DNA of 50,083 nt from Clostridia bacterium (GTDB lineage: Bacteria > Bacillota > Clostridia > Oscillospirales > Acutalibacteraceae), in the NCBI GenBank assembly GCA_017472225.1, contig JAFUQS010000044.1, positions 1-50,083 on the forward strand. The letters are read 5' to 3'. The position numbers were made by a program, and so were the translations under genes. How positions within the stretch are numbered: position 1 is the first letter of the stretch; each line of letters begins with the position of its first letter. A model generated the notes under the pieces. That model ran no database searches, was not told where the DNA came from, and saw only the letters and a list, made by a program, of their open reading frames with translations. This document shows positions 10,041 to 49,325 of the stretch, piece by piece.

Positions 10041-10063
10041 CTTTTTATACTCATTCCTTTCGA

Positions 10064-10114: not shown

Positions 10115-10150
10115 ATCTCTTTGTTAAAATACTCGTAAATCCAGCTTAAG

Positions 10151-15256: not shown

Positions 15257-15300
15257 AAAAAATCCTCCTGTCAACAACTGTTTAATTTAGTACGTATTGT

Positions 15301-16315: not shown

Positions 16316-16326
16316 GCTTTTTCACC

Positions 16327-18450: not shown

Positions 18451-18948
18451 ATGCAAAAAATTGACATCAAGGCCCTTCAGGGCAATGCCGTGTCGCTCTT
18501 TGACGATAAGTGGTGTCTCATCACTGCCGGCACAAAAGACAGCTATAACACTATGACAGCCTCGTGGGGCGCTATGGGTGAGCTGTGGAATAAAGACGTC
18601 TGCTTCATCTTTATCCGTCCTCAGAGGTACACAAAGGAGTTTGTTGAAAGAGAGGAGCTATTCACCCTCAGCTTTTTCGGTCAGGAATATAAAAAGGCGC
18701 TCACCTTCTGCGGCAGATACAGCGGCAGAGATTATGACAAAGCTAAAGAGACAGGTCTCACTCCTGTGGAAATTGACGGAAGCATGACCTTCGGTGAAAG
18801 CGAAACCGTTATTGTCTGCAAAAAAATTGCACAGCAGGAAATTGCTCCTGCCGGTTTTATCGACAAAGACATCGACTCAAAAAATTATCCCACAAAAGAC
18901 TATCATACAATGTATATCGGTGAAGTCATTGCCTGCTATACCAAATAA
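18451..18948 (+). CDS. Flavin-reductase-like FMN-binding split-barrel protein
   Basis: This 165-residue cytoplasmic protein resembles the flavin reductase domain family, which binds FMN and reduces it with NAD(P)H or serves as a flavoprotein electron carrier. It shows the typical N-terminal pattern WCLITAGTKDSYNTMTASWG, the segment FIFIRPQRYTKEFVE and LFTLSFFG, followed by the C-terminal strand HTMYIGEVIACYT. AAGAGGTGA precedes the ATG. It has its own promoter and terminator and no partner gene, so its electron donor and target are unknown. It has no signal peptide, unlike the surrounding gene products. Confidence 0.88.
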   Translation: MQKIDIKALQGNAVSLFDDKWCLITAGTKDSYNTMTASWGAMGELWNKDVCFIFIRPQRYTKEFVEREELFTLSFFGQEYKKALTFCGRYSGRDYDKAKETGLTPVEIDGSMTFGESETVIVCKKIAQQEIAPAGFIDKDIDSKNYPTKDYHTMYIGEVIACYTK

Positions 18949-18966
18949 ACAGACAAGCAAAGTTGC

Positions 18967-19008
18967 AAAGCACCTGAAAGGAACTTTTCGTACTTTTCAG
19001 GTGCTTTT
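18967..19008 (+). terminator. Terminator of the flavin-reductase-like gene
   Basis: AAAGCACCTGAAA (18967-18979) and TTTCAGGTGCTTT (18995-19007) form a 13-bp stem ending in a short T-run. Confidence 0.85.
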
Positions 19009-19070
19009 ACTTATATCCAAACTTCACCGGCCGCAGGCTGCTTAACTCCTTCACTTCTTCACTCTTACCT

Positions 19071-19104
19071 AAAAAAACTCCCCACCTCATGTGAGGTAGG
19101 GAGT
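19071..19104 (-). terminator. Terminator of the giant gene, possibly bidirectional
   Basis: ACTCCC-ACCTCA and TGAGGT-GGGAGT arms (19077-19104) form a long stem with one mismatch. On the minus strand it is followed by seven T residues. A T-rich run on the other side (TAATTTTTA) could also terminate plus-strand transcription. It lies 40 nt after the giant gene's stop codon, in the convergent gap. Confidence 0.85.
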
Positions 19105-19143
19105 AATTTTTATTGAGTTGTGACTTTAACAATCACTTTCGGC

Positions 19144-20223
19144 TTAACCGAAGATACCGAAAATCTTCTGGAAGAATTCCTTAATCTTCTTGATAAGTCT
19201 CTGGAACCAGTTGAGGTTTTCTTCAACTTCCTGTTCAGCATCGTGGTAATGGTCGTCGCCACCTACGGTCTCTTTCCATACGCCTGTGAGCTGTTCCATA
19301 GCGTCTGCAATTGCACCGTATGTGCACTGTGAACCGTTACCGATTGCACCGAAGAGATCCTTGAAGATCTGCTGGATTGTAGCAACGTTGCCCATGAGTG
19401 CTGCATCGATTGTAACTGTTACACCGAGAGCATACATAAGAGCTGATACGATGATGTCGCTTGAGTTGTTGAGTTCAGCCTGGTTGAAGAGTTCGTTTAC
19501 GCCATATCTTACAGCCTGCTCAGCACCGCTCTGCAGATCGAAGAAGTCTACGAGCCACTGAACGAGTGCTTCTCTGTTGCCTGCCTCACCGAACATATCA
19601 AATACCCATGTGAGAACAACTGTAAGTGTGTCACCCTTATCAGCAACGATATTCTTCTGAGTTGACTTATGAGGTGCATTCGGATTTGCTGCTGTGTAAG
19701 CTGCATATTCGTCTGCTCTCATTTCCTTGGTGTAGGAGTTAGCTTCAAGTGAACGTGAAGTGTCAACTTCCTGAGCCTTTGAGCCACCCTGTGAAGCAAG
19801 GTTGAACCAGTCAATTGTGGGAATATGGAAGTCATACTTAGCGCCGCCTACAACGATGCCGAGGTCGATATTGTGAAGCAGTTCTTCAAGCTTGAGATAG
19901 CTTGTAATATCAACACCGAGAACGTTTGTTACAGTGATAAGCACTGAGTAAACAGGAGCAAGGAGATTCTTCACTGTCAGAAGGAGACCTTCGTTGGAGA
20001 AGAAGTATGCAAGGTTGGGAAGGATGCCGAGGAGTGTGTCAACGGGCTTAGCAAGAAGCTTGTTAACAAGGTCAGCAACCTTACCGAGGATGTAGCCAAG
20101 GAGCTGAGTTTCGTCAGCGTTAACTGCATCTACATATTCCTTATGAGTGAGAACGTCGTTAGCTGAGAAGCCGAGTGCTTCAAGAAGCGGGATGATTGCA
20201 TAATCGTAACCGTTACCGCCGCC
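19144..20223 (-). repeat. Giant protein repeat unit 15, truncated, with C-terminal tail
   Basis: The anchor GGNGYDYAIIPLLEALG is followed by helical segments (NLAYFFSNEGL, IDWFNLASQ) but no further unit. The end is an acidic/histidine stretch (GGDDHYHDAEQEVEEN), then a tryptophan, a basic amphipathic helix and a hydrophobic terminus. Confidence 0.65.
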
Positions 20224-23200
20224 GATCTGTACGATACCGAATACGTCGAGTTCCTTACCTTCGCCAATAAGGAGAAGCTCAAGAAGGTCGTTAAGCGGTG
20301 TCAGGAAGCCGGCAACTGCACGTGTAAAGTGGTTTGTATTGCCTTCAGTGATCTTCCAATCAATGTTAGCTTCTTCAAGTGAGGTTACGTTAGCCCATGT
20401 CGGGTTGTCGCCGCCTGCTGCTACAGCCTTTTCAAGGTGTGCTGCCACGCCCTTGAGGTAATCTCTTGTTGCAGCAAGTTCGCTCATCTTAGCTGAGAAG
20501 GATGCAAGTGTAAGCGGGATCTCAATGCCAAGATCAAGTGTTGCGATTGTTTCAAGGATAGGTCCTACTGAGTCGCCTGCAAGAAGTCCGACGATCATAT
20601 CGACGAGCTTATTGACCATAGCGTCTGAGATGAACTGTCCAAGCAAGCTCTGGAGTGAGCCAACACCGGCCATGTCAAGAATTCTTACAATAAGATTATC
20701 AAGGTTCGATGCGATTATATCAGCGTTCTGTTCTGTGAAGGTCAGATAGCTTCTATAGTCAGCGCCTGTTACGTTGATAGGTCTGTTCTGTACGGGCTGG
20801 TAGGATACGTCGCCGAGAAGACCTGCGATGAGATCGATGATCTTTGAGGGATCGTCTACGATCTGATCGATGATGTCCTTAATGCTGGGATCAAGTTCTA
20901 CACCAAGAGCTTCAAGAATCTTTTCAATGTTGTTTGAACCGTCTTCCTGTTTGTTGATGACAACTTCGAGAAGTGTTACGAAGGTGTCAGCAGCGTCGCC
21001 CTTGATTGTGCTGTAGGACTTACCTGCATAGATATCATACTTAGGATCGAGCTTAGTGCTGTCGAAGTCTACAATGCCGTCACCGTTAGTATCAGCACCT
21101 GCCTTAGCAGCAAGTTCGAGCCAGTTGAGGTCTACTACAAGACCGAGAGGCTTACCTTCAACTTCGATGTTTGCAAGCAGATCACTGAGCATGTTAGCAA
21201 GAGCTTCGCCCTCAACTACAATGTGGATACCTGCGTCAACACCGGGATGTTCCTTACCAAGGTATGTCTGAACAACTGCCTTATCGGTATTGATATAACC
21301 AAGGTTAATTTCAATAGCGATGGGGATAATTGTGTCAACCTTAGCAATAAGCTGGTTAACCGGAGCAAGGAGGTTATCGATGATTGTACCGATATCGTCG
21401 TTGCCGATTACATAGCAGAGATTTGCAAGGATGCTTGTGAGCCAGTTGATGGGATTCTTAAGGATATCGTTTTCAACTGCTGTTACAAGCTGGTTGAGAA
21501 TCGGGTAGAGAACGCTGTCATGATTTGCCTTAACAGCTGAATCATAAGCCTGCTGGCTCATAGCGTCAATACCGAGGAGTTCGAGAAGCGGGATGATTGA
21601 GTAGTTGTAGCCCATACCGCCCATGATGTTAATTTCATCAAGTGCGCTGATTGACTTACCTACTGTTGTGCCGCCGCTTGCTTCGAAGTCACTTCTTACC
21701 TGACCGCCCTGGATGAGGACTGCAAGGATAGGATCAAGAGGCTGGATGAAGTCGCAAAGGAGATTTACAAGATCCATGAGACCTGCTACACCCCATGTGT
21801 ACGGGATGAATTCACGACCTGATTCATCTACATCAGGTGTTGCGGGATCGTCAGCAACTTCTACACTGTTAACCTCCCAAACCTGAGGCCATGTCAGCTC
21901 ATCAAGAGTTGTGCCGGCCTTAACTGCTGAATCTTCAAAGAACTTCTTAACGTTTGAACCGAAGTCATCGTTTGCAAATGCCTTAGGTGCAATATCAAGG
22001 TCCTTAAGATTTGAGAGTTCACGAACATAACCGAGGATTTCGTCGAGGTCCATATCAAGACCGCCGAGGAGTTCTACGATCATACCTACAAGCATGTTAC
22101 CGATATCATCGTTGATGAAGCCCTTAATGAGATCACCAAGACCAGTGATAGCGTTACCGTCTGCATCTTCAAGACCTACAAGGCTGAGGATTGTCGGGAT
22201 AAGTGCATCAAGGTTAGATACGATGCTGTTGAACTGCTTGTTGGTTTCAGCTGAAGTCATCTGTTCCTTCTTGAGGTTCTGCTGTGCGTACTCTGTATAT
22301 TCTACAAGGTACTTAGCAAGAAGTGAGATAAGAAGGTCGATTACTTCTTCTTCCTTATCAACGAGTGACATGAGAATGTTGTAAACCATATTCTCATTGC
22401 CTTCTTCGTCAGTTGCTGTCAGACCGAGCTTCTTGCAAAGGATTGTAAGGAAGTCAGTTGTAAGAGCTGTGTCGAGGATGAACATGATTGTGTCACCGGT
22501 CTCAACATGCCACTTAGTTACTTCCTTGCCAACATCTGTCGGGTCAACAAGACCTGCAGGTGTATCAACCTTGATAGCTGCCTTAGCAAGCTGTACAAAG
22601 AAGTCATCGGGAAGAGCATTTACTACATGAACGGTACCGTCTTCGCCCTCTACTTCGAGGCCGCCGAGCAGATCGTTTACAAGCTTAACAAGTGTTTCAC
22701 CGTGATCACCTGCGATACCGAGGATACCGCTGATTGTAAGCATTTCGTTGCCTGTCAGGCTAGCGAGGAGTGCATCAAGTTCTTCTCTTGAAATTGTGCC
22801 GTCAAGAGCATCAACAAGTGACAGAACAGGTGATACAAGGTTGTTGATGAGTACTTCAACACCGCCGTTTGCAATGAAGAAGCTGAGGTTACCAAGGAGA
22901 ATAAGGAGTGTATTGAACGGTGCATTGCAAAGCTCGTCAACAAGTATGAATACATAGTCGATTGTGTTTGCAAGAGCGTCAACTGCATCTGTTGCAGGTG
23001 TCCATGTTGCACCCATTTCCTCAAGACCGAGAGCCTTGAAGAGATACCAGATAGCGTTTTCATAACCGTTGTTACCCTTAAGCATTACGTTATCAACGCC
23101 CATGCCCTTAGCGATTTCAAGGTTGCCGCCTGTGAGCAGGAATGCAAGTACGCTTTCGAGCGGGTTGAGCAGTGAATAGATAGCGCCAAGGAATGCATCC

Positions 23201-26200
23201 TTATTGTTTACATTTGTGAAGATAGCGTCGTCAACAACAACTGTTTCTTCGCCTTCTACAGTTTCCTTATGGCTGTGAGCTGCAAGTACATCTGCCCAAG
23301 TGATTGCGCCGTCTGTACCTGTGCCTGTAGCTGCATTTACATATGCAAGGAGCTCTGCGCTGCCGCTTGCTGTTGCAAAATCAACGGGAGCGAGGTTGAT
23401 GCCGAGCAGATCGCCGAGAGTACCAACAAGGTCTTCGGAAATTGACTGACCGAGGAGCTTGATAAGCATATCAGTGATTGTCTTCATCATTTCGTCTGTG
23501 AAGAGCATGTCGCTGAGGAGTGTATCTACGATGTGCTTGAGAACAGGTGTACCTTCGGGTACTGTTTCAGCTGCATCGAGGAGAGTATCCATAAGTGAGC
23601 CTTCTTCAACATCGTCGCCTGCAATGATGGGAAGCAGTGCGGGAAGTGCCTTGCCGATAAGTCTGTCAAGAGCTGCAATAGCTTCGTCAGCCTTCTTCAG
23701 ACCGTAATCCTTAACACCGAGGAACTTGAATACCATTTCGAGAACGGTGATGTCATATTCGCCTGTGAGGATAAGTACGAGAGTACCAACAAGGTTGATA
23801 ACTGCATCGTTATCGCTGAGAACGTCATTGATGAGACCTTCAATTGTCGGGTCAAGCTCTGCGTCACCGATAAGACCGAGAACAAGATCCTTAATAACTG
23901 CAACGTTAGCATCTGTCAGGATAGCATTGAGAAGAGTTACAAGAGTGTCAGCTGCGTCACCGGAAATGTTCTTATAGGGATCATTGCCGTCGCCGATAGC
24001 TGTTGAGTCTGCATAACCGTAAACCATTGCTGAATCTGTGTAGATGATGTTGCCGTCCTTATCTCTCTTAGCCATTGCTGCTGCAAGTGCAAGCCAATCA
24101 AGGTCGAGAGTCAGGCCGAGAGGTTCACCGTCGATTTCAATGCCTGAAAGCAGACCGCTGATGAGAGCGCTCAGATCGTCAGCACTGAGGTCGAATGTCA
24201 AGCCGGGTGCAAGACCCTTCTTGTTTTCGATATCGAAGTCGAACTTGAATGCGTTATTTTCATCCATACCTACGAAGAGGCTGATGGGATATACCTTACA
24301 TACTGCATCGAGGAGTTCTGTCAGCGGAGCTACAAGGTTGAGAACCAGAGTATTTACGCCTTCTGAACCGATGAAGTAGAACAGGTTAGCTACGAGGCCG
24401 AGAACCTCAGTAATGGGAGCTGCAAGGATGCCGTCTACTCTTGCTACGATTGTGTCAAGGATATACTTGAGTGATGAACCGTGGTACTTACCGTCGATTT
24501 CAGCATCATATGTTGCCTGGCTGACAGGTGTTGCACCAAGAGCTTCGAGGAGCGGGATAATTGCATAGTTGTAACCGTAACCGCCGTTGATGCGGATGTC
24601 AGCACGTCTGATGTAGTCTTCGTCCTCAAGAGCGATAATCTGCTTACCGCTGAGAAGGATTTCAAATACTACGTCAAGCGGGAGAAGAAGGTCTGCTGCG
24701 AAGTTGATAACATCTTCGAGAGTCTTCATACCCCAATCGTAATCAGCATCAAATTTCTTTTCGTGTACGAGTACCTTAGTGAGAATTACAGTTGTTTCGG
24801 TAGCATCTTCGCCTTCGCCGGATGTAATAACTGTTGTCATTGTGCCGTCTTCAGCTGTTGTTACCTTATCATCTGCAAGAGCAATCTGAGTTTCTGTGCC
24901 GTCAGCTTCATATGTGTAAAGCTTATTGCCGTCTTCGTCAGTTGCCTGTACCATTGACTTAGTAAGGCTGTATGTTGTTACAACTTCCTTACCGTCTTCG
25001 TCAGTTGTTGTTACCTTCCACTCTGTGAGTGCATCACTGTCGTCAGTAACCGTTACTGTTACTTCCTTACCTTCAGCATCTGTTGTCTTGTAAGTATATG
25101 CATATTCTGCATACTTAGCTTCAACCTCTGCCCATGTCTGAGCATCGCCGATGAAGTCGCCGAGCTTAGAGCCGAACTTGGTTGCTGCAAATGCCTGAGG
25201 ATTAATGTCGAGCTTCAGGTTAGTCAGATCCTCAACATAGCCGAGGATGTCACCGAGGTCAAGATCTGCGAGTACGGGAACAAGGAGTCCCATGAGAAGG
25301 TTGCCGAGGTCAGCGCCTGCTACAAGGCCGTCGATCATACCGCCGAGGTCGCTGTCTGTACCGAGCATACCGAGTACAGTTGTGAGAAGTGCATCGAGAG
25401 CTGTGATAGCATCGGGAAGAGCTTCTTCAACCTTAGCTGCGTTCTTATCAAACGGTGTGTAGTCTGCGCCTGCGCCTGTAAGAGGAGCCTGCGGAATCTT
25501 CTTATAAGTGATTGTGTAGTTGTCAAGGAGCATGAGGATTACATCTACAAGCTCGATTTCCTTATCTGCAAGTGAGGTTACAATTGTTACAACTGTGTCA
25601 CCTTCCTGAGCGTCAGGAGCGATCTTGCCGATGAGCACCTTGAGGAATGTGTCGTCGAGAACCTTATCAAGGATGTACATGAGAGTTTCAGCTGCATCAA
25701 CATCCCAGTTTGTTGCTACCACGTCACTGATTACATCTGACTCAGTGAACTGGTCAGCATCAGGTGTTTCAGTGGGTTCTTCGTTAACGATAGCATACTG
25801 TGAAAGTTCTACGAAGAAGTCTTCGTCAAGAGCATTGATTGTGTCAACAACGTTGCCGTCCTTATCCTTAACTTCGAGACCGCCGAGCAGATCGTTTACA
25901 AGAGCAACGAGGTTAGCGCCGCCGTTGTTACCGATACCGATGAGGTCTGTCAGACCGTAGCGCTTGTCACCGAGCTTGATGAAGCCCTTAAGGATGCCGT
26001 CCAGCTGGTTGCGGCTGATTACGGGTTCAAGGAGTTCGAGGATAGCGAATACGGGAGCAAGGAGATTTTCAATGATCGGCTGGAGGTTGTCGTTTGCAAC
26101 TAAGTAGCCGAGACCTGCTACAAGTTCAAGGATTGTCTGGAGAGGAGCATTTGTGAGCTTACCTACAAGACCGTTTGTGCCGATAAGACCGTCAACGAGC

Positions 26201-44200: not shown

Positions 44201-47200
44201 TTTTCGTCCTTCTCATATACAAGAACTTCATTTCCGTCCTCGTCCTTCTCAGTCTTCTGCTCGCCTGTACCAACGAGAAGAGTTACAAGAAGCTGCATTA
44301 CATCATTTGATGTGATAACATCAGCTACAACGTCTGCCAGATTATCGCCTTCTTCAATGTTCTTGAGAGGCTCGATGATGCCTGCCATATTTTCAGGAAG
44401 CATACCCTCAAGCATGGGAAGAACCATGGGGATAAGAGTGGGAAGAAGGTCCATAATAAGGTCGTCAATCGCCTTGATAGCTCTGTTGACCTTACCAACC
44501 ATAATCTTTTCATCTGTTGTGTCAAATACGCCTCCAGCAACAATTATTTCTTTGCCGTCAGCATAATATTTGCCGTCAGGTATGTCTGCGAGTGACTCGG
44601 AGAGATACTGACCTACAACGAATTTGCCTGCTGTTGTACCAATAGTCTTGAGAATTTCAAAACCACCGTCAGCATATGTGTCATTATAAGCATAGTATTC
44701 AGGTGTGTATTCATTAAGAAGTGAGATAAGAATTGCCACAACTGTGTCAGCCTGACCGTCGATGATGGGCAGGATTGTGTCAATAATTGTAACGCTTGAA
44801 GCAGATTCTTCTCCCGTATCTGTTGAAAGCATACCGTTAAGCATGGGAGCCAGCTTGTAGAACACGCCGTCGTTCATAAGCCAACGGAACAGTGCAAGCA
44901 ATACGTCACCTGTGTCAGGATTGAGGTGGTAGTTAATGAAGCTGCTCTGAGCACCTGTAACTGTCTTAACTGTCAGACTACCCATTGACATAATACGGTT
45001 AACGGGCATACCGAGGTCTACAGTACCGTGACCTGTACGGCTGTTATACTCAAACATTTCAAGCAGACCTGTGTTACAGCCCTTAGCGCCTGTGCTGAAG
45101 AGTGTCTGAGTGAGCATACCGGGCTTAGCATAGTAATATCCGTTTTCGTCAACGTAAACTTCCATTCTTGCCGTTGCTGTCCACTCATCGGGATGGCCGT
45201 CAGGATATGTCTCATTAAATTCTTCTATATCTATGTTGTACTGTTTTACATTTCCGTCCTTATCAACAAGGTCATAAATCTTATTACCATCTGCATCCAG
45301 GACATTTTTCTTCAGGAAGGCTACACGATCCTCTTCGGCCTTCGCCATTTCCGCATCGTAGTAGGCCTTATTCACTCTTGTTACCTGAAGGAGCATGTTG
45401 ATAACGCCTGCAAAGCCCTTATCGAGCTCGATACCCATATCTGTCAGCATACCGCCGAGAAGATCCCATACGCCGAGCTTATAAACACTGATACCACCAA
45501 AGAGGTCAATAAGGAAGTCGAGCTTGATGTTCTTGACCTTGGGAAGAATCTGGTTGTATTCAATAGCGCAAAGAAGGTTGGGAAGAAGTCCGAGAATTGT
45601 CTGAACGGGGTTAACGAAGAGCTGTGTTTCCATCCAGTAAATCAGGGGCTCAAGGATATAGCGCCAGAATGTTACACCGTAGCCTGTGATATAAGGTGTT
45701 GTGTCGCCGCCTTCAAGATAACCTGCGATCTTGGAAGCGTCTGTCATAGTTGAACCTGATCTGTAACCGTAGGGGTTTGTTGATGCGTTATAAGCAGTGA
45801 TACCAAGTAACTCATAGAGAGGCACAAGGAGTCTGTCATACAGGGGGTCACCGATGTTTTCAGCTATAGCATTAAGCTCGATACCGATGATGTCTGACTT
45901 AGCTCTGAGAGTTGAGCTTGTGTCGCAAAGGATTGTACCGAGAGGACCTGCAAGACCTGCAGAAGCAGCTGCAAATGAAGTGTAAAGGTCTGTGTTGTTT
46001 TCAACATGCCAGATTTCTTCCGGTGTGTATGTATCCCATGCATTGTCGGGAAGACCCTTACCTGCGCCTGACTGGCTGAAGTTTATTCTTACATCGTTAT
46101 CCCAGAATGATACGGTCTTTTCATTATCACCGTTACTAACGTTACCACTTTCGTTAAGTCTGGGAGCCTTAGCAAGGATTTCAAGAACCTTACTGTAGTC
46201 GTAATTTGAGCCGTAAAGTGAACCGTCATAGAACTTATACCAACGAACACCTGTCTGGCCGCATGAGTTGCCGTTCCAGTTTTCAGTGAACCAGTGAGGC
46301 ATAAGAGGAAGAGCACCACGAAGGTATTTGGGAAGCTTTACACCAACCTTACCGATAACTGCGATATCCATATCAAGGTCCATGATAACATTACCGAGAA
46401 TACCGCAAAGTGATATAAGCAGGTTCTGAACAGTACCGCCGTAAAGAAGACCCATAATCATATTAATGAGCATTTCACGAAGGTTCTGAACCTTATCACC
46501 CTTATATCTTGTGGTTTTGCTGCCATCAGGGTTGTTAAATGTGTATGTAATGCTCCATTCACCAAGAAGGCCCTTGCCTGTTTCAGCGTTAACTGTAAGA
46601 GCATCAAGGATTGAACCGAGGTCGTTTGAGATAAGCATATTATCAAACTTAGCAACCATTTCGTCCATGAGCACTTCAACACTGTCGTCTGAGCCTACTG
46701 CACCAAGACCGATACCAAGCTTGTTAATAAGCTCCTTAATTGTGTCATAATCGAGTTCGCCTACGCCCTTGACCCACATATATTCATAGAAGTCTCTGCC
46801 TGCGTAGTCGTCACGGCTGTTATATCTGTCAAACAGATAGTTAAGGATTGTCTTGTCGCCCTGAACACCGCCTTCAACCTTAGCGTATGTTCTCATCTGA
46901 GCAAGAGTATCCTTGAATTCCTGAGCCTTTGTTGAATAGGGAAGAACTAATTCATACATTGCTTCAAGCTCATCAAGAGTGTGAACCTCAGCATCTGTAT
47001 TTACAAATTCTTCTGCCTCAGGATTGTATGCGGGATCTCTTCTGAGGAAATTGAAAAGAGTACCCTGCTGAACTTCAAGAGCTTCTGTTGCTGAAACGAT
47101 AGCCTCAAAGTTATAATATGTAACATTGTTACCGCCTTCTGCGTAATAAGTCTTGATTCTGTCAAGCTGTTCATATACACGGTTAGCAGCACGACGCTTA

Positions 47201-49176
47201 AGGTCGTTTACAAAGTTATCATATTTAGTCATGCCTTCGCTGCCGAAGATCTGAGTGAAGAGTTCTATTGAATCATCATCAGTCTTATTAGCAAGCTCTC
47301 TGCATTCTGTATAGCCGTATTCAACTAATTCATTATAATATGTAATGATGTTTGAATATGACATACCACCGGTCAGACGAACTGAACCCATGAAGGTATC
47401 CATCTTAGCCTTCATAGCAATATAGTCTGAACCGTTGAGGTTAAGGTTAGCCTTAACATAGTTGTTATAAAACTTATTCCAGTTAGCCTGGTTAAGTGTT
47501 TCTGTTGCAATAAGGTCAAACTTAACATTGCCTTCAGCGTCTTCGATTAAGGGGAATACCTTAATCTCAAATGTTGCAACAACATCTACAGCCTTATTAA
47601 AGAAAGCAAGTGCTTCGTTATAGTCAACATGAATACAGTGCTGAGGCTTTTCGTCTGCATCAACAATGCCATCTTCATTTGTGTCAACCCAACCGTATGT
47701 GCAGTCACCCTTATAGTAACCGTCTTCTTCTGTCAGACCGTTACCGGCGCCGTCACAATATTCTGTGCAACCGTTACATGCTGCCCATGTGTGACCCATA
47801 GCTGCTGATGCACTTGCATCAATAATGGTTGTGTCATAAATTTCATCATAAGCCTCAGCCCATTCTGCAGCGAATGTACGTGCAACTCTTGTGCCGAGAG
47901 CTGACTGCTTGTCGAGAGCCTTGTCATAATCTGTGCCCATCTCAGCAATGATGTCGTCAGCAATGTTTACATTTGTGTCACCGTTGAATGCTTCCTGAGC
48001 ATCAATATTAGCAAACACTTCTGTAACCTGAAGATAAATATCATAAAGCTGGTCACCTAATGTTACAGCATCAGTCAGGTCAGCATCCTCAGTCAGAGCA
48101 TCAGCCTGAGCATAAAGGGCATCAAGCTGTGACTTATACTCTACAGCATAAGCCTTTGCAAGATGAAGATTAACCTTTTCCTTATACCACTGCTGGATTT
48201 CTGCCCAATCCTTCTGATCCTCAACGGGAGTGATGTTGGGAGTTACATATGCATTCCAGATATCTTCAGCGGTACCGACTGCTGTAAAGAGGATAGCACT
48301 TTCAAAGTCATAGAGCTTGTTTGAAATCTCTTTAACCTTTGCATTGAGCTCTTCAGCGCTAAGGGCATCAAAATCAATAGCGAACCAAGCTGCAGTGAGT
48401 GTGATAAACTCTGCAACTGAATTCTTGATTGTGAGCATTGCTGCCGCTGTCTTAGCTGAATCCATCTGATTGTTAGTGAATTCAATGCTGTCAGCTGTCA
48501 GACCGTAGCCGCTGCCTTCAATGCCTGCTGTCTTAAAGCTTGCAGTAGCATTATAGAGCTTCAGGTCAGCCTCAGCAGTGGGAATCTGCTCGTAGTCAGG
48601 AGCCCATTCCAAAACATTGAAGCCAAGACCGATGTAAAGTGAAATTACCTTCGGCACACTGTAGAAGCCTTCGTCTTCTGTTTCACCGAATGCAAAATAC
48701 TTCAGCACCTCGTCATAGTTGTCAATGCTTACAAGAGCACTGGCACGACCTGTCATTGAAGCTTTTACCTGATTGAGTATTTCTTCATAAATTCCGTAGT
48801 AGGTGTGCTTTGTTGCAGCTACTACCTTTGCAGCTTCAGTGTATGCTGCTGCTACCCAGTGCCATGAGCTGGTACCTGTGTCCAGTTCAACCTTCCACTG
48901 AGATGTGTTTGTCTGCTGCGGAACCTTCTTCTTGGCTTCGTCCAGTTTTTCCTGAATTTCAGCCTTTTCAGCTTCTTCCGTAGCATTTGCAAGCTCGCCC
49001 TCAAGCTTCTCAACGTCCGCAATGAGATCAGCTAATGTTGAATAGTTGAGCTCAATACGAGTCATGAGGTTGTCAATTGTGTTACTTGCGCCGAGAACGC
49101 CGAAGCACACTGACACGCTGGAGACTATCATCATGATAGCGAGTACGCAACTTAGTACTTTTTTTCCAACTTTCAT
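19144..49176 (-). CDS. Giant secreted repeat protein (10,010 residues), unknown function
   Basis: One uninterrupted frame of 10,011 codons starts at an ATG seven bases after AAGGAGG and ends at TAA (19144-19146). Residues 1 to about 30 are a signal peptide (basic start, hydrophobic core, end VLGA). Residues about 40-85 are heptad-like and charged, possibly coiled coil. A cysteine-rich patch (about 462-515) includes the EF-hand-like loop DTNEDGIVDADE. From about residue 1,105 to 9,650 fifteen diverged units follow, each marked by an anchor like GGNGYDYAIIPLLEALG and built mostly of leucine-rich amphipathic helices. Acidic tyrosine-rich modules, probably beta-stranded, precede many anchors. The last residues are an acidic run, then NLNWFQRLIKKIKEFF and a hydrophobic end. 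No LPXTG, SLH, dockerin, polyketide/peptide-synthetase or kinase motif was seen. Predicted mass is about 1.1 MDa and the protein is strongly acidic. I do not recognise the family. A surface-retained structural or adhesive role is inference. It is monocistronic. Confidence 0.93.
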   Translation of the reverse strand: MKVGKKVLSCVLAIMMIVSSVSVCFGVLGASNTIDNLMTRIELNYSTLADLIADVEKLEGELANATEEAEKAEIQEKLDEAKKKVPQQTNTSQWKVELDTGTSSWHWVAAAYTEAAKVVAATKHTYYGIYEEILNQVKASMTGRASALVSIDNYDEVLKYFAFGETEDEGFYSVPKVISLYIGLGFNVLEWAPDYEQIPTAEADLKLYNATASFKTAGIEGSGYGLTADSIEFTNNQMDSAKTAAAMLTIKNSVAEFITLTAAWFAIDFDALSAEELNAKVKEISNKLYDFESAILFTAVGTAEDIWNAYVTPNITPVEDQKDWAEIQQWYKEKVNLHLAKAYAVEYKSQLDALYAQADALTEDADLTDAVTLGDQLYDIYLQVTEVFANIDAQEAFNGDTNVNIADDIIAEMGTDYDKALDKQSALGTRVARTFAAEWAEAYDEIYDTTIIDASASAAMGHTWAACNGCTEYCDGAGNGLTEEDGYYKGDCTYGWVDTNEDGIVDADEKPQHCIHVDYNEALAFFNKAVDVVATFEIKVFPLIEDAEGNVKFDLIATETLNQANWNKFYNNYVKANLNLNGSDYIAMKAKMDTFMGSVRLTGGMSYSNIITYYNELVEYGYTECRELANKTDDDSIELFTQIFGSEGMTKYDNFVNDLKRRAANRVYEQLDRIKTYYAEGGNNVTYYNFEAIVSATEALEVQQGTLFNFLRRDPAYNPEAEEFVNTDAEVHTLDELEAMYELVLPYSTKAQEFKDTLAQMRTYAKVEGGVQGDKTILNYLFDRYNSRDDYAGRDFYEYMWVKGVGELDYDTIKELINKLGIGLGAVGSDDSVEVLMDEMVAKFDNMLISNDLGSILDALTVNAETGKGLLGEWSITYTFNNPDGSKTTRYKGDKVQNLREMLINMIMGLLYGGTVQNLLISLCGILGNVIMDLDMDIAVIGKVGVKLPKYLRGALPLMPHWFTENWNGNSCGQTGVRWYKFYDGSLYGSNYDYSKVLEILAKAPRLNESGNVSNGDNEKTVSFWDNDVRINFSQSGAGKGLPDNAWDTYTPEEIWHVENNTDLYTSFAAASAGLAGPLGTILCDTSSTLRAKSDIIGIELNAIAENIGDPLYDRLLVPLYELLGITAYNASTNPYGYRSGSTMTDASKIAGYLEGGDTTPYITGYGVTFWRYILEPLIYWMETQLFVNPVQTILGLLPNLLCAIEYNQILPKVKNIKLDFLIDLFGGISVYKLGVWDLLGGMLTDMGIELDKGFAGVINMLLQVTRVNKAYYDAEMAKAEEDRVAFLKKNVLDADGNKIYDLVDKDGNVKQYNIDIEEFNETYPDGHPDEWTATARMEVYVDENGYYYAKPGMLTQTLFSTGAKGCNTGLLEMFEYNSRTGHGTVDLGMPVNRIMSMGSLTVKTVTGAQSSFINYHLNPDTGDVLLALFRWLMNDGVFYKLAPMLNGMLSTDTGEESASSVTIIDTILPIIDGQADTVVAILISLLNEYTPEYYAYNDTYADGGFEILKTIGTTAGKFVVGQYLSESLADIPDGKYYADGKEIIVAGGVFDTTDEKIMVGKVNRAIKAIDDLIMDLLPTLIPMVLPMLEGMLPENMAGIIEPLKNIEEGDNLADVVADVITSNDVMQLLVTLLVGTGEQKTEKDEDGNEVLVYEKDENGDYVLDDAGNKIPVMDTGLLGGLLGEGILANLLTALADFDIDIRPYGFWKAAQADGNTAITRWLQDCLTEAQKEDSSITAETLSWAYVTAPADVNGETFDWFYMLKGDETAEVKIDTFFDALETLLTPLDPILSFIFSGQDITLLDELTLEGNPGYSTGLVMLIEALGYGGVKIAGTNYTASMKATDYLTHVHGSIDPEANKTGRNWTTVNSPLSPLFTALRGFLVGDDATGNVGILESPLTALLTKLPNIAYLLYSYDSTEVDASGAFKKTNNLAQAVKNLIAPVLSLLDIVDPILARALELDIAALLDEFLNIELMLNEMITGMVREEDASAGEVVVSNFIDFAALAAYGSDNIDVKAASNVTGVGGTFTYFHGNPGQALITIVRSIMSDELIVEFADTFMDWYTTVEDGEEITDEMRDDWTRVRQIVTDIAKRAKEPVLIGDDKQYNGTGVDIIVGILVDLLTDYVPGEGVEMFYETMGNEEYSAEIMEKYGIYSTGYDWLNITLDENDTPLFTKEEVGDTLDSFDAVLKKALPDVIDILTSQNILDLSSLGIELEGGATLYEVLTKLVESFAFTDEIMTTIVNLLGGLFGGSIGDFLPIVADAGIDITAISVYKNAAENGGLRQYMAYGLENFDAATGQITVDGETRDLTWADISAAHGYQAYEYDEHGNVVLNEDGSAKLAYAQQDKLNDKGEQIKDADGNVVTEDNLESPTMKLIASTYIQEKKDGKFVYTYKTVDADGKSVDAEYLSAFEHLESFAEPELDEDGKVKVDEDGNEIWTKYTLKAVYTETKIDGAWSWNFDNVTAMGNYGDNFYGKVSYFITCLWEIIGGLGDILEAIFFGADSNKAVKLFDTLNIEGEDGFADTLLPLLRGLGLDAILSYLNTTAATDSDGNELTDPDDGSTYTMLEQLNDERVEIYGAGVNPIPANLLKGNEGARRSFGTWVTTGTDDVVAWTYAAEQAGTIEWASEYGYDMEIFLKVVVNYIFYFVEILATYPITTLMNMLPTLAYFVTSDGLTQILTNLLTFVTVLTDRLAPIIDVDVNTLGGSLVDMLATGSWESFQEVFTQHIDYDENGNLVQTTSDITFTESIVGLFANMEIDLTGLMKSEEPFVRTITYFTNGEVDAQARAMVEAAPDDEEVAKAARDMRTQASYAWLKSVAALAQPFGDSYTDANGKTHTIKGNMLPYDINGDGTIDSDEKVDARGMVKVDAYNGQLEVDSEDVFMFILDFVFENTTMKEVLGALLGYDLTDENGSDAEFLDELLTNVFRSPDSVVDLIVALFTTYDVASAEGVQLMAIDEYHYNFYDEDGSTTYQDILPQIQAGTYAGSEISRVKTGYAIDNLDKLVGTVLNLFKKDLVKEGGLFHGIFTENDDINLKAAVNGLLEDLLFTDDMINDLLGMLVGLLAGEGVGDIIGVVTDLLKSAAGIDIAPEAFANNAILQSIILKEDGTAKTWSEIAAENTKYEYKYQKLVEDKDGNLVGETDDKGEPVYASHFDVEGATTAVVDADGDGEEDDTVALIKVWNQRHQTIDQNGVKKYVYYFYETEEDKTNDVRTEYFHTGDNETEYVIPATDGEEEQKFTLTKVMEDDTTSQATAVKFDKQWNIVVEGDSKTSRLNFVTVLWDVLEPLAPVLGVFLTGQNLSLYGEITIRGFDGYEGVILPLINALGAPVFTYEDENGNERKYLETYYENQERYEAAIYGGEYEEADGTITNYVGESQVMIQVIIDAVFALVDSLCDRPVSTIATLLPYLARFLESKGIDTILGNLLSPVTALTDMIKNVYDLDIMGLIKGLLQGLAADMQQPAVDTATDYVEEQIDEAAAANANAGVALAAEEDDSILNNDSGIDTSKLTFMDIIWDIIEAVQIDMGDGKKLVLSDIITDRLFVTLASCAWYDDEGLGYVMIKDINIVADNLDDSRVINVEKDTDYFVDRETVLLAFLDTLLFQESVRDLIAGLIGDFDFSDEALKDMKPAEDKVLDTDYLLPVLLYGVFMDGEAVERLLIDLLSWYDVEYAPERVEVPAELDDALPTTDWDTIGIDEAELEKLPTDLDNLVAAILPLVLELLPQFGLDLGIDLGGADTIEEMVENLIGSLFVDTVNEDGTVKNGLATTLFTLLVNLLGGGKLDEILSLVYELTGGDENAVNLTLDYFKASSSAIATYFADCDTWEDAYNKYSVKVEYDAESDKVTWTDDNGTPDDETDDIEHKDEAAANDGKYLYKTDAQNKAVHVYAKDEDGNAIVATTNGQIETCPDCGLEFYVTAGDGEALEGDDAANVVAYTNGAFEYEYQYEVKLTGTNSFGVKDYDTAIALLGDIITPFVPVFKLLFLEKGDLVLLDGITISAGDGYDRFVIPVAEMFGIEIEKDKYDIETLTNAEFGDWFVNGLVKLINKIVKSPVQTIVDLLPNLAYFIVSGGLAQAVEQLLAPILTLVDMVNDIAAKEIEVEGRDEPLVALNIYELLVDLLKDIITLPEGTDTPGEIISALLTDEGLEDLIMGLVKDDMGTPDDKSDDVTKLGFLDGFFMDLVKKTVAITDVETMRYFGATVSGGTRTVKGVKATRANTLLQLISEIVLAEDGLIFDILEMTGTDLNDPANETLKTVIDGITGNNRYCVLEVLLNYFNHYDVEGSLIEYLSFEAKTFAYETYSTDTTLTARKVRRAIKKLDQAILGLIPEILPMLEEVAFLKGALDSLKKDDGTYTGVTLKMVVEAILTDLAFKDETMDMLIGMIVGLLGGDGIADTLNTLNPILKDLLSVDLAPAAVAAGAEAGGAQALADFIDAAIEGTIADRTTSGFDDEGLATQTVREATWSDIAGYYSDYAYYYIDTVVDDKGTEDDTTDDVTTYTIKQHFDNNKIEDGTSTKITVDGEEKTVVLYTRAIATDKDGNIVWADAEGGTPTFARVMKDDQYGFNWTYSVADDPDTEDVDEAKDYEGTVYLETETADKATVKIDGKDVEVAVEEAYVEAGTKVLGATKYTWGIDAAEGFEAKKDMFINILWGIVKAVEPVVNFLFHGEDITIKSKVDGKEVEAITIKGGNGYRYALYPLLQALGADQMGNTLTDPAVYEAAQGNVLTLTAIVDGVLNVVENLENGPFEYILNLLPSLSYFLASDGLRLFVENLASPVFALLDVAEPAVGALLDDLLGGMLSPMIGDFMPDFGAEVEAARKIDDNDTPDDTSDDFKVYTLDEILQIAGKDGSNLVAILNKLVGGMLVETPEGETAKVIEILPANFFSEYVAYAIDISKDDGAIDYYELKNKTTGEIIFIAQADYNEADYKADYDIIGTRYAVSQWSVDIADSLVYLLESVLSGDLVKEIAKYGSDDWNEKLEKEDFITIILNNLITGKDLGLTLTDIIVSLFEGYKVSYTELNGIYIDIDHTGMTASPELPGKLDKIINEALPVILPLIAGEDVEAGSIMDTLLKACEGYGKDEDGNEVAETETILAVVVDELLGSFLSDEMVRGVVEMLVGILGNETIDMILGLIKIGDHKLTATDYLAQISAHFDGKADYATALAAVQSIMTGYDSWAEVAEANTKYAYTYVIKEATADAEAVLGTYYDVSDKLDGTKKTIDETEYTLTKKTEEIKNEDGTVTLKHVTAVKLDESLTFGIDAAEDKLTAVINAFTVLLEPLTEVLQLVLQGKTLTLLSSNGVYVGKSFEDAYNTTTGAAGETPDDDRATADVGVIMGDGFIEIRGSKGYDEGLLALAEAIFGDKAASLGIVSGETFNAYNDIEDILGAVIDIIMALVDGLTAGPVTFLADHLAGLLYFVVSDNLAALVDNVLALANGLFEVLAPVTGTDDLLSMLGLDLSILKLDNLLDMLNDLIQKPTDFEVTIADDGKATYVRDEKTVEVEDTTKIFDKTIKNEDGSEETIKAITVNTGLDFEITKEMLTELVAALGEFKTIESLRTSANSALVNADGNYVDTTGKLIPEAELEAVLSDGKLTTVVGCRDHFADGLLSFVLSDDILGKFLTKDEENPDNILNDLIDSLTAENAADGVIEILEKLSIKYIVEYTAIVAEDGLLALAKNPVLYDDPEKGHAISKATAEKAVDNVDNLIGPILSMVGMGSLEELVGGLVFNDDMVNMIVGLLAGIFSGLNSDIMDIIDTVAGILGEEIDLSVENYKKDADIAGFFGEATTWAEVAEMYTKYAYTYTIPADPEVEDSKDETVTVYLAEGLTEYEADGKTYELTKVYEQAVSSEGHPMYKVTLPNGLVINMGVVANDGVTTKDGKTTVKVNTEAGVVDCAAEVIYTDVQATKVVYDYAWGMAELDDIYAQIDKFVAVLTSFLAPLDFILEVLLAGGSNAATDEEKIANSDSIGAFEEINIMGGSGYNYAIIPLLETLGVPNYKELENGKKIQILSQADYEDTIATKGTLGYILETLLYYIADGLNAPLSFVADLLTNLVYSIANGDGLTILISNLIAPVTELLKAVEGVLPVAIKIDLLELFPAEGEEAEIFKIMLGADVAENGADVGLELDLSLPVIEQLITKVLNNFAKDLDVEFNLRDFVESAIAVDENGKIIYVDSMTTTDWDHINPADAQWRKRIVVDRADAIVAFLDMIVTQEFLDGLLKMLNVEFDENGYIPALANFSTTVAQIVKDALDDPTTAIDAIIRLLAADYTVEDYKVLFDVLSLANYTYDDSVASKANLALALNKLDAVINNAIEPLLNMLGGMDNMPEIVTELAAAVKDGKAEASIGGVLDYVLDDLLFTDDLINSLFSMLVGLLGSMDDKTFTMINDLLGEILHINLTPAEFANAIAAAGIDDSKIAAYIAKFPATEKAVTWADIAAANTKFVYSYEIPAEEEGKEPKVVEVYFDYEGEVTYEDEDGVAWAIKPVMVEDKDEEGNTITVQKTKVVTTEQWIAADETDKQHAFISTVLEILAPFSPVLDWLFRGEGIQLIYEGFVLDGGNAYDNVLVPLVKALGVDIKTNAQLGVDENAIVCVEELLNGILALVDKLADAPIQTIIDLVTGLSYFIASDGIEETVRGIVAPIFGLVSTLETIAPMSTIDALLEELVKVELPGGKPLNITNIIDIAGDHGEGLVAMLNELIGSVEITDEAGNAVYLNLLKDDFFVQVANHGIVYEDTDVKTITDEAEIGYDYQPDHKYVADWSVDRTDALMYVLSAVCSDDFLTVLCDLIGQEKGTTVGDLILGLAGKQNNLVDIIITLLTDYKINYVDYARQPISKEPVEHIAPMTEESLQKALAALDPIIVAVIGIIGLDADSLQSLLGELLEGLDVGNMLVNMLVPLLAGLDLGEILGYVKDLTNIDLDIAPEAFQHNTFKSQLANFIGSAEDLNEDGEISWSEIEAKYTQYVYTYEVTNDKGEVQYDDEGKAKTETYYSYDADLDGKTVTIGEGEDAKEVKLSKALIEQTKLDAEGKPVVGEDGTEVKESVHKTEMHAEYDWKLALNKSLDGVVNLAADLLYPLDFVLGLLLTGEQVIVLPDVNEDGSRGDDIRISGGRGYNFAIIPLLEALGIEALTEAEYVELAKTKGHLWYILDAIIGKVEDELLKTPVQTLLKLLANLFYFIGSDGINNIADNLLAFANVLLKKVAPVFKVGISIDLGELNKTDGKVLKTTFDKNEDGSTPAYVASMEAGIKVNVKGSDLTTLLKDLLEGIEIEIDGKKEPLGLSLDLNWLSIASQMAAADENGIVKVPTAQVTTEGEAATWFNVVGDVEDTFTTLIKTLLTEENTYAIAKLVEGLLANVDLPDGSEEGEIDVVGIIKDILYDPNGIQELLAAVVLLLSGTYDIQPADVAYYVFAALTYFDGENAADGDKLNSAISRLDAIIVREVPELLPKFIDADKAEGILKTLVDAAAQSDSLYGMVEYILADLAFTADNFNSLMNTLVKALAGFLTEDLAKTLMDLLGVDLAPQAFAAETGYTQLISYVGDNKTWADVWTANSTEVTKEDGTKERVANDYNWGVTDQSTFVTALLSLLTPLNPVLDFILCGGNLELLSDSIKLPGGNAYNTALIPLFKALGVDLATANTSTEALDKLVDGLIGTNGLVGKLTNAPLQTILELVAGLGYLVANDNLQPIIENLLAPVFAILELLEPVISRNQLDGILKGFIKLGDKRYGLTDLIGIGNNGGANLVALVNDLLGGLEVKDKDGNVVDTINALDEDFFVELSQYAIVNEEPTETPDADQFTESDVISDVVATNWDVDAAETLMYILDKVLDDTFLKVLIGKIAPDAQEGDTVVTIVTSLADKEIELVDVILMLLDNYTITYKKIPQAPLTGAGADYTPFDKNAAKVEEALPDAITALDALLTTVLGMLGTDSDLGGMIDGLVAGADLGNLLMGLLVPVLADLDLGDILGYVEDLTNLKLDINPQAFAATKFGSKLGDFIGDAQTWAEVEAKYAEYAYTYKTTDAEGKEVTVTVTDDSDALTEWKVTTTDEDGKEVVTTYSLTKSMVQATDEDGNKLYTYEADGTETQIALADDKVTTAEDGTMTTVITSGEGEDATETTVILTKVLVHEKKFDADYDWGMKTLEDVINFAADLLLPLDVVFEILLSGKQIIALEDEDYIRRADIRINGGYGYNYAIIPLLEALGATPVSQATYDAEIDGKYHGSSLKYILDTIVARVDGILAAPITEVLGLVANLFYFIGSEGVNTLVLNLVAPLTELLDAVCKVYPISLFVGMDENNAFKFDFDIENKKGLAPGLTFDLSADDLSALISGLLSGIEIDGEPLGLTLDLDWLALAAAMAKRDKDGNIIYTDSAMVYGYADSTAIGDGNDPYKNISGDAADTLVTLLNAILTDANVAVIKDLVLGLIGDAELDPTIEGLINDVLSDNDAVINLVGTLVLILTGEYDITVLEMVFKFLGVKDYGLKKADEAIAALDRLIGKALPALLPIIAGDDVEEGSLMDTLLDAAETVPEGTPVLKHIVDTLLSDMLFTDEMMKTITDMLIKLLGQSISEDLVGTLGDLLGINLAPVDFATASGSAELLAYVNAATGTGTDGAITWADVLAAHSHKETVEGEETVVVDDAIFTNVNNKDAFLGAIYSLLNPLESVLAFLLTGGNLEIAKGMGVDNVMLKGNNGYENAIWYLFKALGLEEMGATWTPATDAVDALANTIDYVFILVDELCNAPFNTLLILLGNLSFFIANGGVEVLINNLVSPVLSLVDALDGTISREELDALLASLTGNEMLTISGILGIAGDHGETLVKLVNDLLGGLEVEGEDGTVHVVNALPDDFFVQLAKAAIKVDTPAGLVDPTDVGKEVTKWHVETGDTIMFILDTALTTDFLTILCKKLGLTATDEEGNENMVYNILMSLVDKEEEVIDLLISLLAKYLVEYTEYAQQNLKKEQMTSAETNKQFNSIVSNLDALIPTILSLVGLEDADGNAITGLGDLIKGFINDDIGNMLVGMIVELLGGLDMDLDEILGYVRELSNLKDLDIAPKAFANDDFGSNVKKFFEDSAVKAGTTLDELTWPQVWEVNSVEVADDPATPDVDESGREFIPYTWGVAGLMDLVNLLCDFIQPLDPILAVLIQGGQVRSDFEASGGTTVGKSISALDEINIMGGMGYNYSIIPLLELLGIDAMSQQAYDSAVKANHDSVLYPILNQLVTAVENDILKNPINWLTSILANLCYVIGNDDIGTIIDNLLAPVNQLIAKVDTIIPIAIEINLGYINTDKAVVQTYLGKEHPGVDAGIHIVVEGEALANMLSDLLANIEVEGKPLGLVVDLNWLELAAKAGADTNGDGIVDFDSTKLDPKYDIYAGKSYSTIKGDAADTFVTLLEVVINKQEDGSNNIEKILEALGVELDPSIKDIIDQIVDDPSKIIDLIAGLLGDVSYQPVQNRPINVTGADYRSYLTFTEQNADIIASNLDNLIVRILDMAGVGSLQSLLGQFISDAMVNKLVDMIVGLLAGDSVGPILETIATLDLGIEIPLTLASFSAKMSELAATRDYLKGVAAHLEKAVAAGGDNPTWANVTSLEEANIDWKITEGNTNHFTRAVAGFLTPLNDLLELLLIGEGKELDVFGIVQIGGGNGYDYAIIPLLEALGFSANDVLTHKEYVDAVNADETQLLGYILGKVADLVNKLLAKPVDTLLGILPNLAYFFSNEGLLLTVKNLLAPVYSVLITVTNVLGVDITSYLKLEELLHNIDLGIVVGGAKYDFHIPTIDWFNLASQGGSKAQEVDTSRSLEANSYTKEMRADEYAAYTAANPNAPHKSTQKNIVADKGDTLTVVLTWVFDMFGEAGNREALVQWLVDFFDLQSGAEQAVRYGVNELFNQAELNNSSDIIVSALMYALGVTVTIDAALMGNVATIQQIFKDLFGAIGNGSQCTYGAIADAMEQLTGVWKETVGGDDHYHDAEQEVEENLNWFQRLIKKIKEFFQKIFGIFG
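20224..21633 (-). repeat. Giant protein repeat unit 14 (about 470 codons, A type)
   Basis: The anchor is GGMGYNYSIIPLLELLG. The A-type marker is PLGLVVDLNWLELAAK. An EF-hand-like loop DTNGDGIVDFDS (about 21058-21093) lies after it. The acidic module is absent. Confidence 0.7.
21634..23089 (-). repeat. Giant protein repeat unit 13 (about 485 codons, B type)
   Basis: The anchor is GNNGYENAIWYLFKALG. The B-type markers are IAGDHGETLVKLVNDLL and DDFFVQLAKAAI. The acidic module is reduced to a short linker ending YTWG. Confidence 0.7.
23090..24600 (-). repeat. Giant protein repeat unit 12 (about 505 codons, A type)
   Basis: The anchor is GGYGYNYAIIPLLEALG. The A-type marker is PLGLTLDLDWLALAA. 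No long acidic module precedes the next anchor. Confidence 0.7.
24601..26306 (-). repeat. Giant protein repeat unit 11 (about 570 codons, B type)
   Basis: The anchor is GGNAYNTALIPLFKALG. The B-type markers NLVALVNDLLGGLEV and DEDFFVELSQYAI are present. It is longer than its neighbours because a full acidic module (about 24729-25143) is retained. Confidence 0.7.
26307..27825 (-). repeat. Giant protein repeat unit 10 (about 505 codons, A type)
   Basis: The anchor is GGRGYNFAIIPLLEALG. The A-type marker is PLGLSLDLNWLSIASQ. The acidic module before the next anchor is reduced to a short linker ending YNWG. Confidence 0.7.
27826..29483 (-). repeat. Giant protein repeat unit 9 (about 550 codons, B type)
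   Basis: The anchor is GGNAYDNVLVPLVKALG. B-type markers are IAGDHGEGLVAMLNEL and DDFFVQVANHGI. The acidic module (about 27975-28290) precedes the next anchor. Confidence 0.7.
29484..31224 (-). repeat. Giant protein repeat unit 8 (about 580 codons, A-like)
   Basis: The anchor is GGSGYNYAIIPLLETLG. A-type features include the segment PVAIKIDLLEL. The motif VVDRADAIVAFLD is followed by an acidic module at about 29590-29860. Confidence 0.65.
31225..33123 (-). repeat. Giant protein repeat unit 7 (about 635 codons)
   Basis: The anchor is degenerate (GSKGYDEGLLALAEAIFG). The segment after the helical block is unlike both subtypes. An acidic module (about 31395-31790) precedes the next anchor. Confidence 0.6.
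33124..35100 (-). repeat. Giant protein repeat unit 6 (about 660 codons, B-like)
   Basis: The anchor is GGNGYRYALYPLLQALG. It carries the B-type segment IAGKDGSNLVAILNKLVGG and the motif DTPDDTSDD near 34650-34680. A short acidic module (about 33370-33630) ends the unit. Confidence 0.65.
35101..37170 (-). repeat. Giant protein repeat unit 5 (about 690 codons)
   Basis: The anchor is AGDGYDRFVIPVAEMFG. GTPDDKSDD occurs near 36650-36680 and GTEDDTTDD near 35675-35700. The acidic module at about 35255-35775 is the longest in the protein, about 170 residues. Confidence 0.65.
37171..39240 (-). repeat. Giant protein repeat unit 4 (about 690 codons)
   Basis: The anchor is GFDGYEGVILPLINALG. The acidic module (about 37270-37685) carries an isolated CPDCG motif and the acidic motif GTPDDETDD. 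An alanine-rich acidic linker lies near 38660-38770. Confidence 0.65.
39241..41625 (-). repeat. Giant protein repeat unit 3 (longest, about 795 codons)
   Basis: The anchor is GEDGFADTLLPLLRGLG. The unit contains a canonical EF-hand-like loop DINGDGTIDSDE (40588-40623) and a second acidic loop DADGDGEEDD (about 39640-39669) in the acidic module at 39350-39830. Confidence 0.65.
41626..43756 (-). repeat. Giant protein repeat unit 2 (about 710 codons)
   Basis: The anchor is GNPGYSTGLVMLIEALG. An acidic tyrosine-rich module (about 41785-42245) with several DEDGN-type loops lies before the next anchor. Confidence 0.65.
43757..45860 (-). repeat. Giant protein repeat unit 1 (about 700 codons)
   Basis: This is the most diverged anchor, ending LVPLYELLGI. 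It is followed by the family's usual helical segment NPVQTILGLLPNLL. An acidic patch near 44160-44270 contains two DEDGN/DENGD-type loops. Boundaries of all units are set at the anchors and are approximate. Confidence 0.55.
45861..49176 (-). other. Giant protein: N-terminal non-repeat region (about residues 1-1105)
   Basis: This region holds the signal peptide, a charged helical stretch and long alpha-helical sequence rich in alanine, asparagine and tyrosine. The cysteine patch at about 47630-47790 includes CNGCTEYC and two later cysteines, with one EF-hand-like loop (47651-47686). The region lacks clear anchors and probably forms a separate head or export-proximal domain. Confidence 0.65.
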
Positions 49177-49186
49177 AAATTTTCCT

Positions 49187-49290
49187 CCTTAAATGAAAGA
49201 ATAGAATATATTTTTAAATAGGAATTCCCTATATATTCCCGATATTTACCCCAAAATGGGTGCAAAATACCCATAGAGACACCTATAACT
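49187..49290 (-). promoter_or_regulatory. Structured leader of the giant gene
   Basis: The predicted untranslated leader is about 110 nt. It contains ATGGGT and ACCCAT arms (49256-49274) and an AT-rich imperfect palindrome around GGAATTCC (near 49220-49230). It ends in AAGGAGG seven bases before the ATG. I recognise no known riboswitch. Confidence 0.45.
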
Positions 49291-49296
49291 ATAAGT

Positions 49297-49325
49297 AGTA
49301 TAACATTCAAGAGCAACTTTTGCAA
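49297..49325 (-). promoter_or_regulatory. Promoter of the giant gene
   Basis: On the minus strand TTGCAA (49320-49325) and TATACT (49297-49302) are separated by 17 nt, placing transcription start near 49290. Confidence 0.65.

Follow-up and report, generated by a model that had tools for sequence, protein, structure and literature searches.

A predicted megadalton secreted protein from an Acutalibacteraceae genome contains an undescribed domain in 15 copies, and smaller relatives tie this domain to a MacB-like ABC transporter

The window analysed here is a 50,083-nucleotide stretch from an uncultured gut organism, a Clostridia bacterium of the family Acutalibacteraceae (assembly GCA_017472225.1, contig JAFUQS010000044.1, positions 1 to 50,083). 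On its minus strand, at 19144-49176, a single gene runs from ATG to TAA over 10,010 open codons, which confirms the frame claimed in the original prediction, made from the letters alone. The predicted product, referred to below as the giant, contains 15 copies of a core domain of ~150 residues each and, as judged by profile searches, this domain is undescribed. In smaller relatives, gene order and co-occurrence link the core domain to a dedicated MacB-like ATP-binding cassette (ABC) transporter. Homologous frames indicate that the giant is not unique: there is a genus-wide family and a member in another genus. Although this megadalton protein has no assigned domain, its family is genus-wide, constrained and nearly fixed in its number of units, so that its production is presumably worth the cost. 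The connection between the core and a dedicated MacB-like transporter is a testable handle and a first clue to function, and the ~900-residue two-core relative, together with its transporter, can stand in for the giant in study.

The simplest members of the core family are proteins of ~900 residues with two cores. Thirteen such loci were selected from the search table on the length of their frames, without regard to neighbouring genes. In 11 of the 13, which represent six genera, the two-core gene is directly followed on its own strand by the gene for a ~915-residue protein of one cluster (one of the 11 copies, at locus L162, is cut by the contig end). Counted from the first possible starts, the two genes overlap or lie at most 11 nucleotides apart in 10 of the 11 pairs, and 61 nucleotides apart in the other. 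The one member of the cluster that was scanned matches ABC_tran at its N-terminus (E 4.7e-34) and FtsX at its C-terminus (2e-20), has transmembrane (TM) windows from residues 273, 787, 838 and 879, and has an outer domain of ~495 residues. For this member the layout is that of the MacB-type (type VII) transporters, i.e., an N-terminal ATPase, an outer domain between TM1 and TM2, and an FtsX C-terminus. Its best PDB row is MacB, at 3.3e-72 over residues 3-303. The identification as MacB itself was rejected, as the score is 285.9 bits against an NCBIfam equivalog cut-off of 966, and the protein is MacB-like only.

Co-occurrence across genomes points in the same direction. A search with the outer domain of the transporter matches 128 of the 250 genomes of the bacterial family, with a clear gap between 13 genomes scoring at least 377 bits and the next at 230. 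All 13 genomes with this close form are among the 40 genomes that carry the core. The hypergeometric P is 7e-12 by genome and 7e-6 by genus, a count that removes shared descent only partly.

The whole-unit profile matches each of the 13 two-core proteins in two stretches that contain a core; most of these matches are partial. In the 12 examined, the N-terminus bears a hydrophobic stretch and the C-terminus a TM window. Four were scanned (three against Pfam and NCBIfam, the fourth against Pfam) with no HlyD, lipoyl or barrel-sandwich match; the trait they share with MacA/HlyD is a gene beside a MacB homolog, found in 11 of the 13 loci. According to the part of the literature consulted, adaptor genes of Gram-positive bacteria in many cases share an operon with a macB homolog (PMC5985334). 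As far as that part of the source describes the MacB-type systems with an adaptor, YknXYZ and pneumococcal MacAB, they resemble the two-core loci in their layout, a partner gene immediately followed by the gene for a fused ABC ATPase/FtsX permease that has a large outer domain and four TM windows. However, the two-core partner matches no adaptor family and instead has a signal peptide and a C-terminal TM helix, the outer domain is ~200 residues there against ~495 here, and the giant differs further in being encoded elsewhere and in having no clear C-terminal TM anchor (PMC5985334).

The repeats of the giant were located with a core profile built from late units, and ten hits below 30 bits were left out of the count. 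The 15 cores start at residues 1079, 1775, 2484, 3282, 3970, 4653, 5279, 5939, 6533, 7076, 7592, 8155, 8660, 9136 and 9616, i.e., at a spacing of 476-798 residues, close to the 470-795 originally predicted. They are 21-44% identical to a reference copy and share the consensus GGxGYxxxxxPLxEALG; at a lower cut-off a 16th, weak core appears. A wider core profile gave no match against the reversed giant or ten shuffles. The parts of the giant are as follows.

19144..49176, minus strand, giant gene, 10,010 residues
45943..49086, minus strand, N-terminal region (residues ~31-1078), without clear core copy or significant family match
45526..45942, minus strand, core 1, the most divergent (all cores from the core profile)
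43276..43854, minus strand, core 2
41038..41727, minus strand, core 3
38803..39333, minus strand, core 4
36847..37269, minus strand, core 5
34756..35220, minus strand, core 6
32776..33342, minus strand, core 7
30853..31362, minus strand, core 8
29146..29580, minus strand, core 9
27490..27951, minus strand, core 10
25984..26403, minus strand, core 11
24256..24714, minus strand, core 12
22756..23199, minus strand, core 13
21292..21771, minus strand, core 14
19879..20331, minus strand, core 15
19147..20769, minus strand, last natural unit and C-terminal tail, modelled with AlphaFold2
19147..19218, minus strand, C-terminal amphipathic tail NLNWFQRLIKKIKEFFQKIFGIFG, conserved in orthologs, low model confidence

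Without its signal peptide the predicted product has a mass of ~1,086 kDa (~1.09 MDa), an isoelectric point of 4.07 and a charge of ~-1056. Leucine makes up 11.8% of the whole, in line with the leucine-rich units noted originally. Over residues 1079-9775 leucine is ~12%, the grand average of hydropathy (GRAVY) is +0.10 and the charge is ~-955. From the models, a natural unit seems to comprise three parts, namely a helical one, the core with its strand pair and several helices, and an alpha/beta one. The last unit with natural limits plus the tail gave a predicted template modelling score (pTM) of 0.75, against 0.50 for a longer stretch cut from core to core, and a predicted local distance difference test score (pLDDT) of 77.3 against 80.0. 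Both modelled stretches are mainly helical, and in the core-to-core model the two core copies have a similar order of helices and strand pair. The giant also contains nine D.[DN].[DN]G loops, at residues 498, 2734, 2852, 3171, 6957, 7006, 7107, 7242 and 9362 (shuffle mean 1.6, maximum 6), which are possible calcium-binding loops.

The gene is conserved beyond this one contig. The same bin holds, on another contig (C21), a second giant of 10,186 residues that is 62% identical over 9,704 aligned residues. The ratio of nonsynonymous to synonymous substitution rates (dN/dS) between the two is ~0.26, and it is 0.27 against the N-terminal 2,026 codons of a giant from another genome (G007); dS is ~1 in both comparisons, which makes the values rough. 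These ratios indicate that the giant is under purifying selection. Core matches occur in all 34 genomes of the genus searched, its own included, and stop-to-stop frames of at least 8,291 codons in at least 16 of them, many bins being fragmented. In another genus, a giant of 10,516 residues carries a signal peptide, ends in a similar tail and contains 18 cores.

Ten giants from nine bins were read for unit counts: eight have 15 cores and two have 18. When units are compared between the eight 15-core giants, the best match has the same position in 808 of 840 cases and scores higher than the best match of the unit inside its own protein in 731 of 840; units without any own-protein match were not counted among the 731. 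By these alignments, the number and order of units are conserved in most giants examined. In an unrooted tree of 76 cores, units 1-6 and the last unit pair between the giant of the window and an 18-unit giant (G033); both support limits are reached by all seven pairs except that of unit 6. Units 7-14 of the window's giant alternate between two clades, while in G033 units 8-12 fall in one clade and the middle is arranged differently. The middle units therefore changed separately. The first cores of the giants group with the first cores of some other members.

Profile searches assign the giant to no described family. No Pfam or NCBIfam row came near cut-off over residues 1-10000, searched in two halves, the PDB sequence search gave no row at E 0.001 or better, and PHROGs gave no match for the parts of the giant searched. 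With its signal peptide and at least two core copies, the giant belongs to the core repeat family. Several known types of giant protein were tried and rejected. An RTX adhesin is ruled out by zero RTX nonapeptides (GGxGxDxh; shuffle mean 0.18), and an LPXTG-anchored surface protein by zero LPXTG and zero NPxTN sorting motifs, the C-terminus being an amphipathic tail. A nonribosomal peptide synthetase or polyketide synthase (NRPS/PKS) megasynthase is rejected since no A, KS, ACP or C domain matches significantly over residues 1-10000 in Pfam or NCBIfam. An Ig-like giant adhesin (Big, FN3) is rejected by the lack of a Pfam match in the giant and by the mainly helical models; one smaller core-family relative carries Big_2. 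The original prediction had called the family unrecognised and had seen neither RTX nor LPXTG signatures, Ig-like arrays nor A/KS/ACP motifs, and on all these counts it agrees with the searches.

The giant shares size, secretion and repeats with the RTX and LPXTG giant adhesins but has neither motif. The Ig-like repeats of those adhesins are shorter than its 476-798-residue units. In the part of the literature consulted, the major groups of huge bacterial proteins are NRPS/PKS and surface attachment proteins (PMC11573180); the giant shares the size class of that survey without an NRPS/PKS or known surface domain being found. Giant1-5 of Apilactobacillus kunkeei, as partly described (PMC12863079), are very large extracellular proteins of 3,000-8,000 residues encoded by five consecutive genes, and the N-termini of Giant1-4 are beta-solenoids. 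Like the giant, they are very large extracellular proteins of a host-associated Gram-positive. However, the giant is one gene of 10,010 residues with mainly helical units (PMC12863079).

We tentatively favour, at just short of even confidence, the view of the giant as an amplified and secreted relative of a protein that partners an ABC transporter, forming a long acidic surface scaffold or adhesin-like cable; the scaffold or adhesin-like role is a best guess. The unit would first have served as the extracytoplasmic partner of a MacB-like transporter, and would then have lost its membrane anchor and been amplified into the giant, in the lineage of the window partly by duplication of two-unit blocks. 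The giant would be exported by Sec, be retained at the cell envelope via its C-terminal amphipathic helices, and act as a long scaffold or cable in the animal gut. In the genus, tails rich in F, W and K are found on 11 of 51 proteins of secreted type, compared with 9 of 144 proteins that have no signal peptide; the 51 include core proteins and probably some false frames.

Several observations weigh against this view. A stricter test of the tails leaves 1 of 48, and the tail as an anchor is a guess from its shape. Scans with Pfam, NCBIfam and motifs found no known adhesive domain, LPXTG or wall-binding motif in the giant. The unit region, with its positive GRAVY, is hydrophobic for a surface stalk and fits cargo binding too. 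Because 12 internal 19-residue windows reach hydropathies of 1.71-2.11, the giant may contain membrane-associated helices. The giant gene is not beside the ABC gene, and the link runs through the domain. Two of the 13 two-core loci, both from one genus, have no ABC neighbour, and 27 of the 40 core-carrying genomes do not have the close transporter form. Finally, descent of the giant from a two-core form is not supported by the tree, as the tree is unrooted and the non-first cores of the giant are not nested within those of the two-core proteins.

The strongest competitor of the scaffold view, although we consider it unlikely, is cargo binding, as the units combine acidity with hydrophobicity. 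Every unit would then bind a hydrophobic ligand such as a lipid or lipopeptide. The two-core form would exchange cargo with the MacB-like transporter in one direction or the other, and the giant would be an extracellular multi-site store, shield or bridge. The combination of leucine content, GRAVY and charge over residues 1079-9775 fits such an array, as do the link to the MacB-like ABC protein and the GRAVY of 0.01 to 0.25 in the outer regions of seven two-core proteins; by contrast, four surface-type proteins encoded upstream of giants have GRAVY values of -0.42 to -0.46. Genes for LCAT-like secreted proteins also lie within ~5 kb of three of the five core loci in the bin. However, the ligand pocket is hypothetical, a large helical core can by itself make a protein hydrophobic, the similarity to LCAT is weak (E 0.22), and 7 of the 10 LCAT-like genes lie away from core loci. 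It can further be speculated, as an improbable extension, that this is a new extracellular machine, in which a MacB-type partner domain was turned into a free megadalton protein of 15 to 18 units. Such a protein would bind hydrophobic cargo (lipid or lipopeptide) or convey it, either through the Gram-positive wall or outside it, and its fold would be one unseen in solved structures.

It is quite improbable that the giant belongs to a known family of giant or solenoid proteins and has diverged so far that profile and fold comparison missed it, given the searches described above and given that, in the draws made, matches are confined to one bacterial family. The wider core profile matches 40 of 250 genomes and 21 of 135 genera of that family, while in draws of 391 genomes from the class and 398 from the phylum, which are samples, the sole match is the window's own genome. 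Phage and plasmid records gave no match to the last unit.

More doubtful still is a reading in which the transporter has the two-core proteins and the giants as its clients or signalling arms and moves or releases them mechanically, with the giant regulating the envelope. FtsEX, which mechanically drives its partners, offers an analogy. The tight coupling of the two-core and transporter genes would fit, and MacB-type proteins are described, in the part of the source consulted, as transmitting ATP-driven movement to the outside of the membrane (PMC5985334). Against it, no hydrolase or sensor domain was found in the members scanned, and no ABC gene among the window genes scanned.

An assembly or prediction artefact has next to no probability: the bin is a draft of 111 contigs with 4.44% contamination and two versions of nusA, but long giants with the same unit order in other genomes and the dN/dS of 0.26 exclude it as an origin of the frame. 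Since nusA and rimP each occur twice in the bin (window 8994-10621, minus strand, and G000:C66), at 87% and 86% identity, the bin probably mixes two species, hence the two giants.

The signals around the gene are the following.

49297..49325, minus strand, promoter-like TTGCAA-17-TATACT with TG before the second hexamer, 9/12 consensus match
49184..49189, minus strand, ribosome binding site AGGAGG, 7 bases before the ATG
49087..49176, minus strand, predicted signal peptide, residues 1 to ~30, judged by eye
19077..19104, minus strand, intrinsic terminator, 12-pair stem and T run, from a stem search

The ideal ribosome site and the signal peptide of the original prediction were both found again, the N-terminus reading MKVGKKVLSCVLAIMMIVSSVSVCFGVLGAS, by eye a typical signal peptide. 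Its clean terminator also holds: the two strands of 18900-19400 together have three terminator-like sites, where shuffles give 0.3. The consensus-like promoter is present, but such sites are not above chance in the stretch (4, against 2.5 with a standard deviation of 1.6 in shuffles). The gene does look functional; "expressed-looking", as it had also been called, refers to sequence signals only, with a promoter match at chance level. A 241-codon open frame antisense to the giant (45028-45753, plus strand) is probably a by-product of its codon use.

A scan of named genomes with a tail profile confirmed at least 12 loci; among those listed, seven cover ~250 or more of the 260 query residues and five cover 26 to 99. 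The loci come from metagenome bins that bear the titles Clostridia, Oscillospiraceae or Ruminococcus; the source of several is the rectum or cecum of sheep, goat, roe deer and dairy cattle. In 6 of the 9 loci where the upstream side is visible, the giant is directly preceded by the gene for a large surface-type protein, which speaks for the favoured surface role. It is ~2,300 residues long where complete, with CxCxCH and CC-PDP tail motifs (e.g., L062:271-7296 and L061:11970-19118), and one of two scanned has Listeria-Bacteroides repeats. Other core-family members have a hydrophobic anchor, C-terminal in L105 and L112 and N-terminal in L106.

Elsewhere in the window, all on the minus strand, an 870-residue secreted-type protein with a sub-threshold Big_2 match (10884-13496) adjoins the rimP-nusA-infB operon, and a tandem pair of Exo_endo_phos-family proteins with hydrophobic N-termini lies at 15434-17199. 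Between them, at 13691-15277, is the gene for a 528-residue secreted protein, the weakly LCAT-like one (E 0.22), with a hydrophobic tail and a lipase-like box with Cys (HCRCLGAN); it has 10 matches in the bin including itself, three of them near core-family genes.
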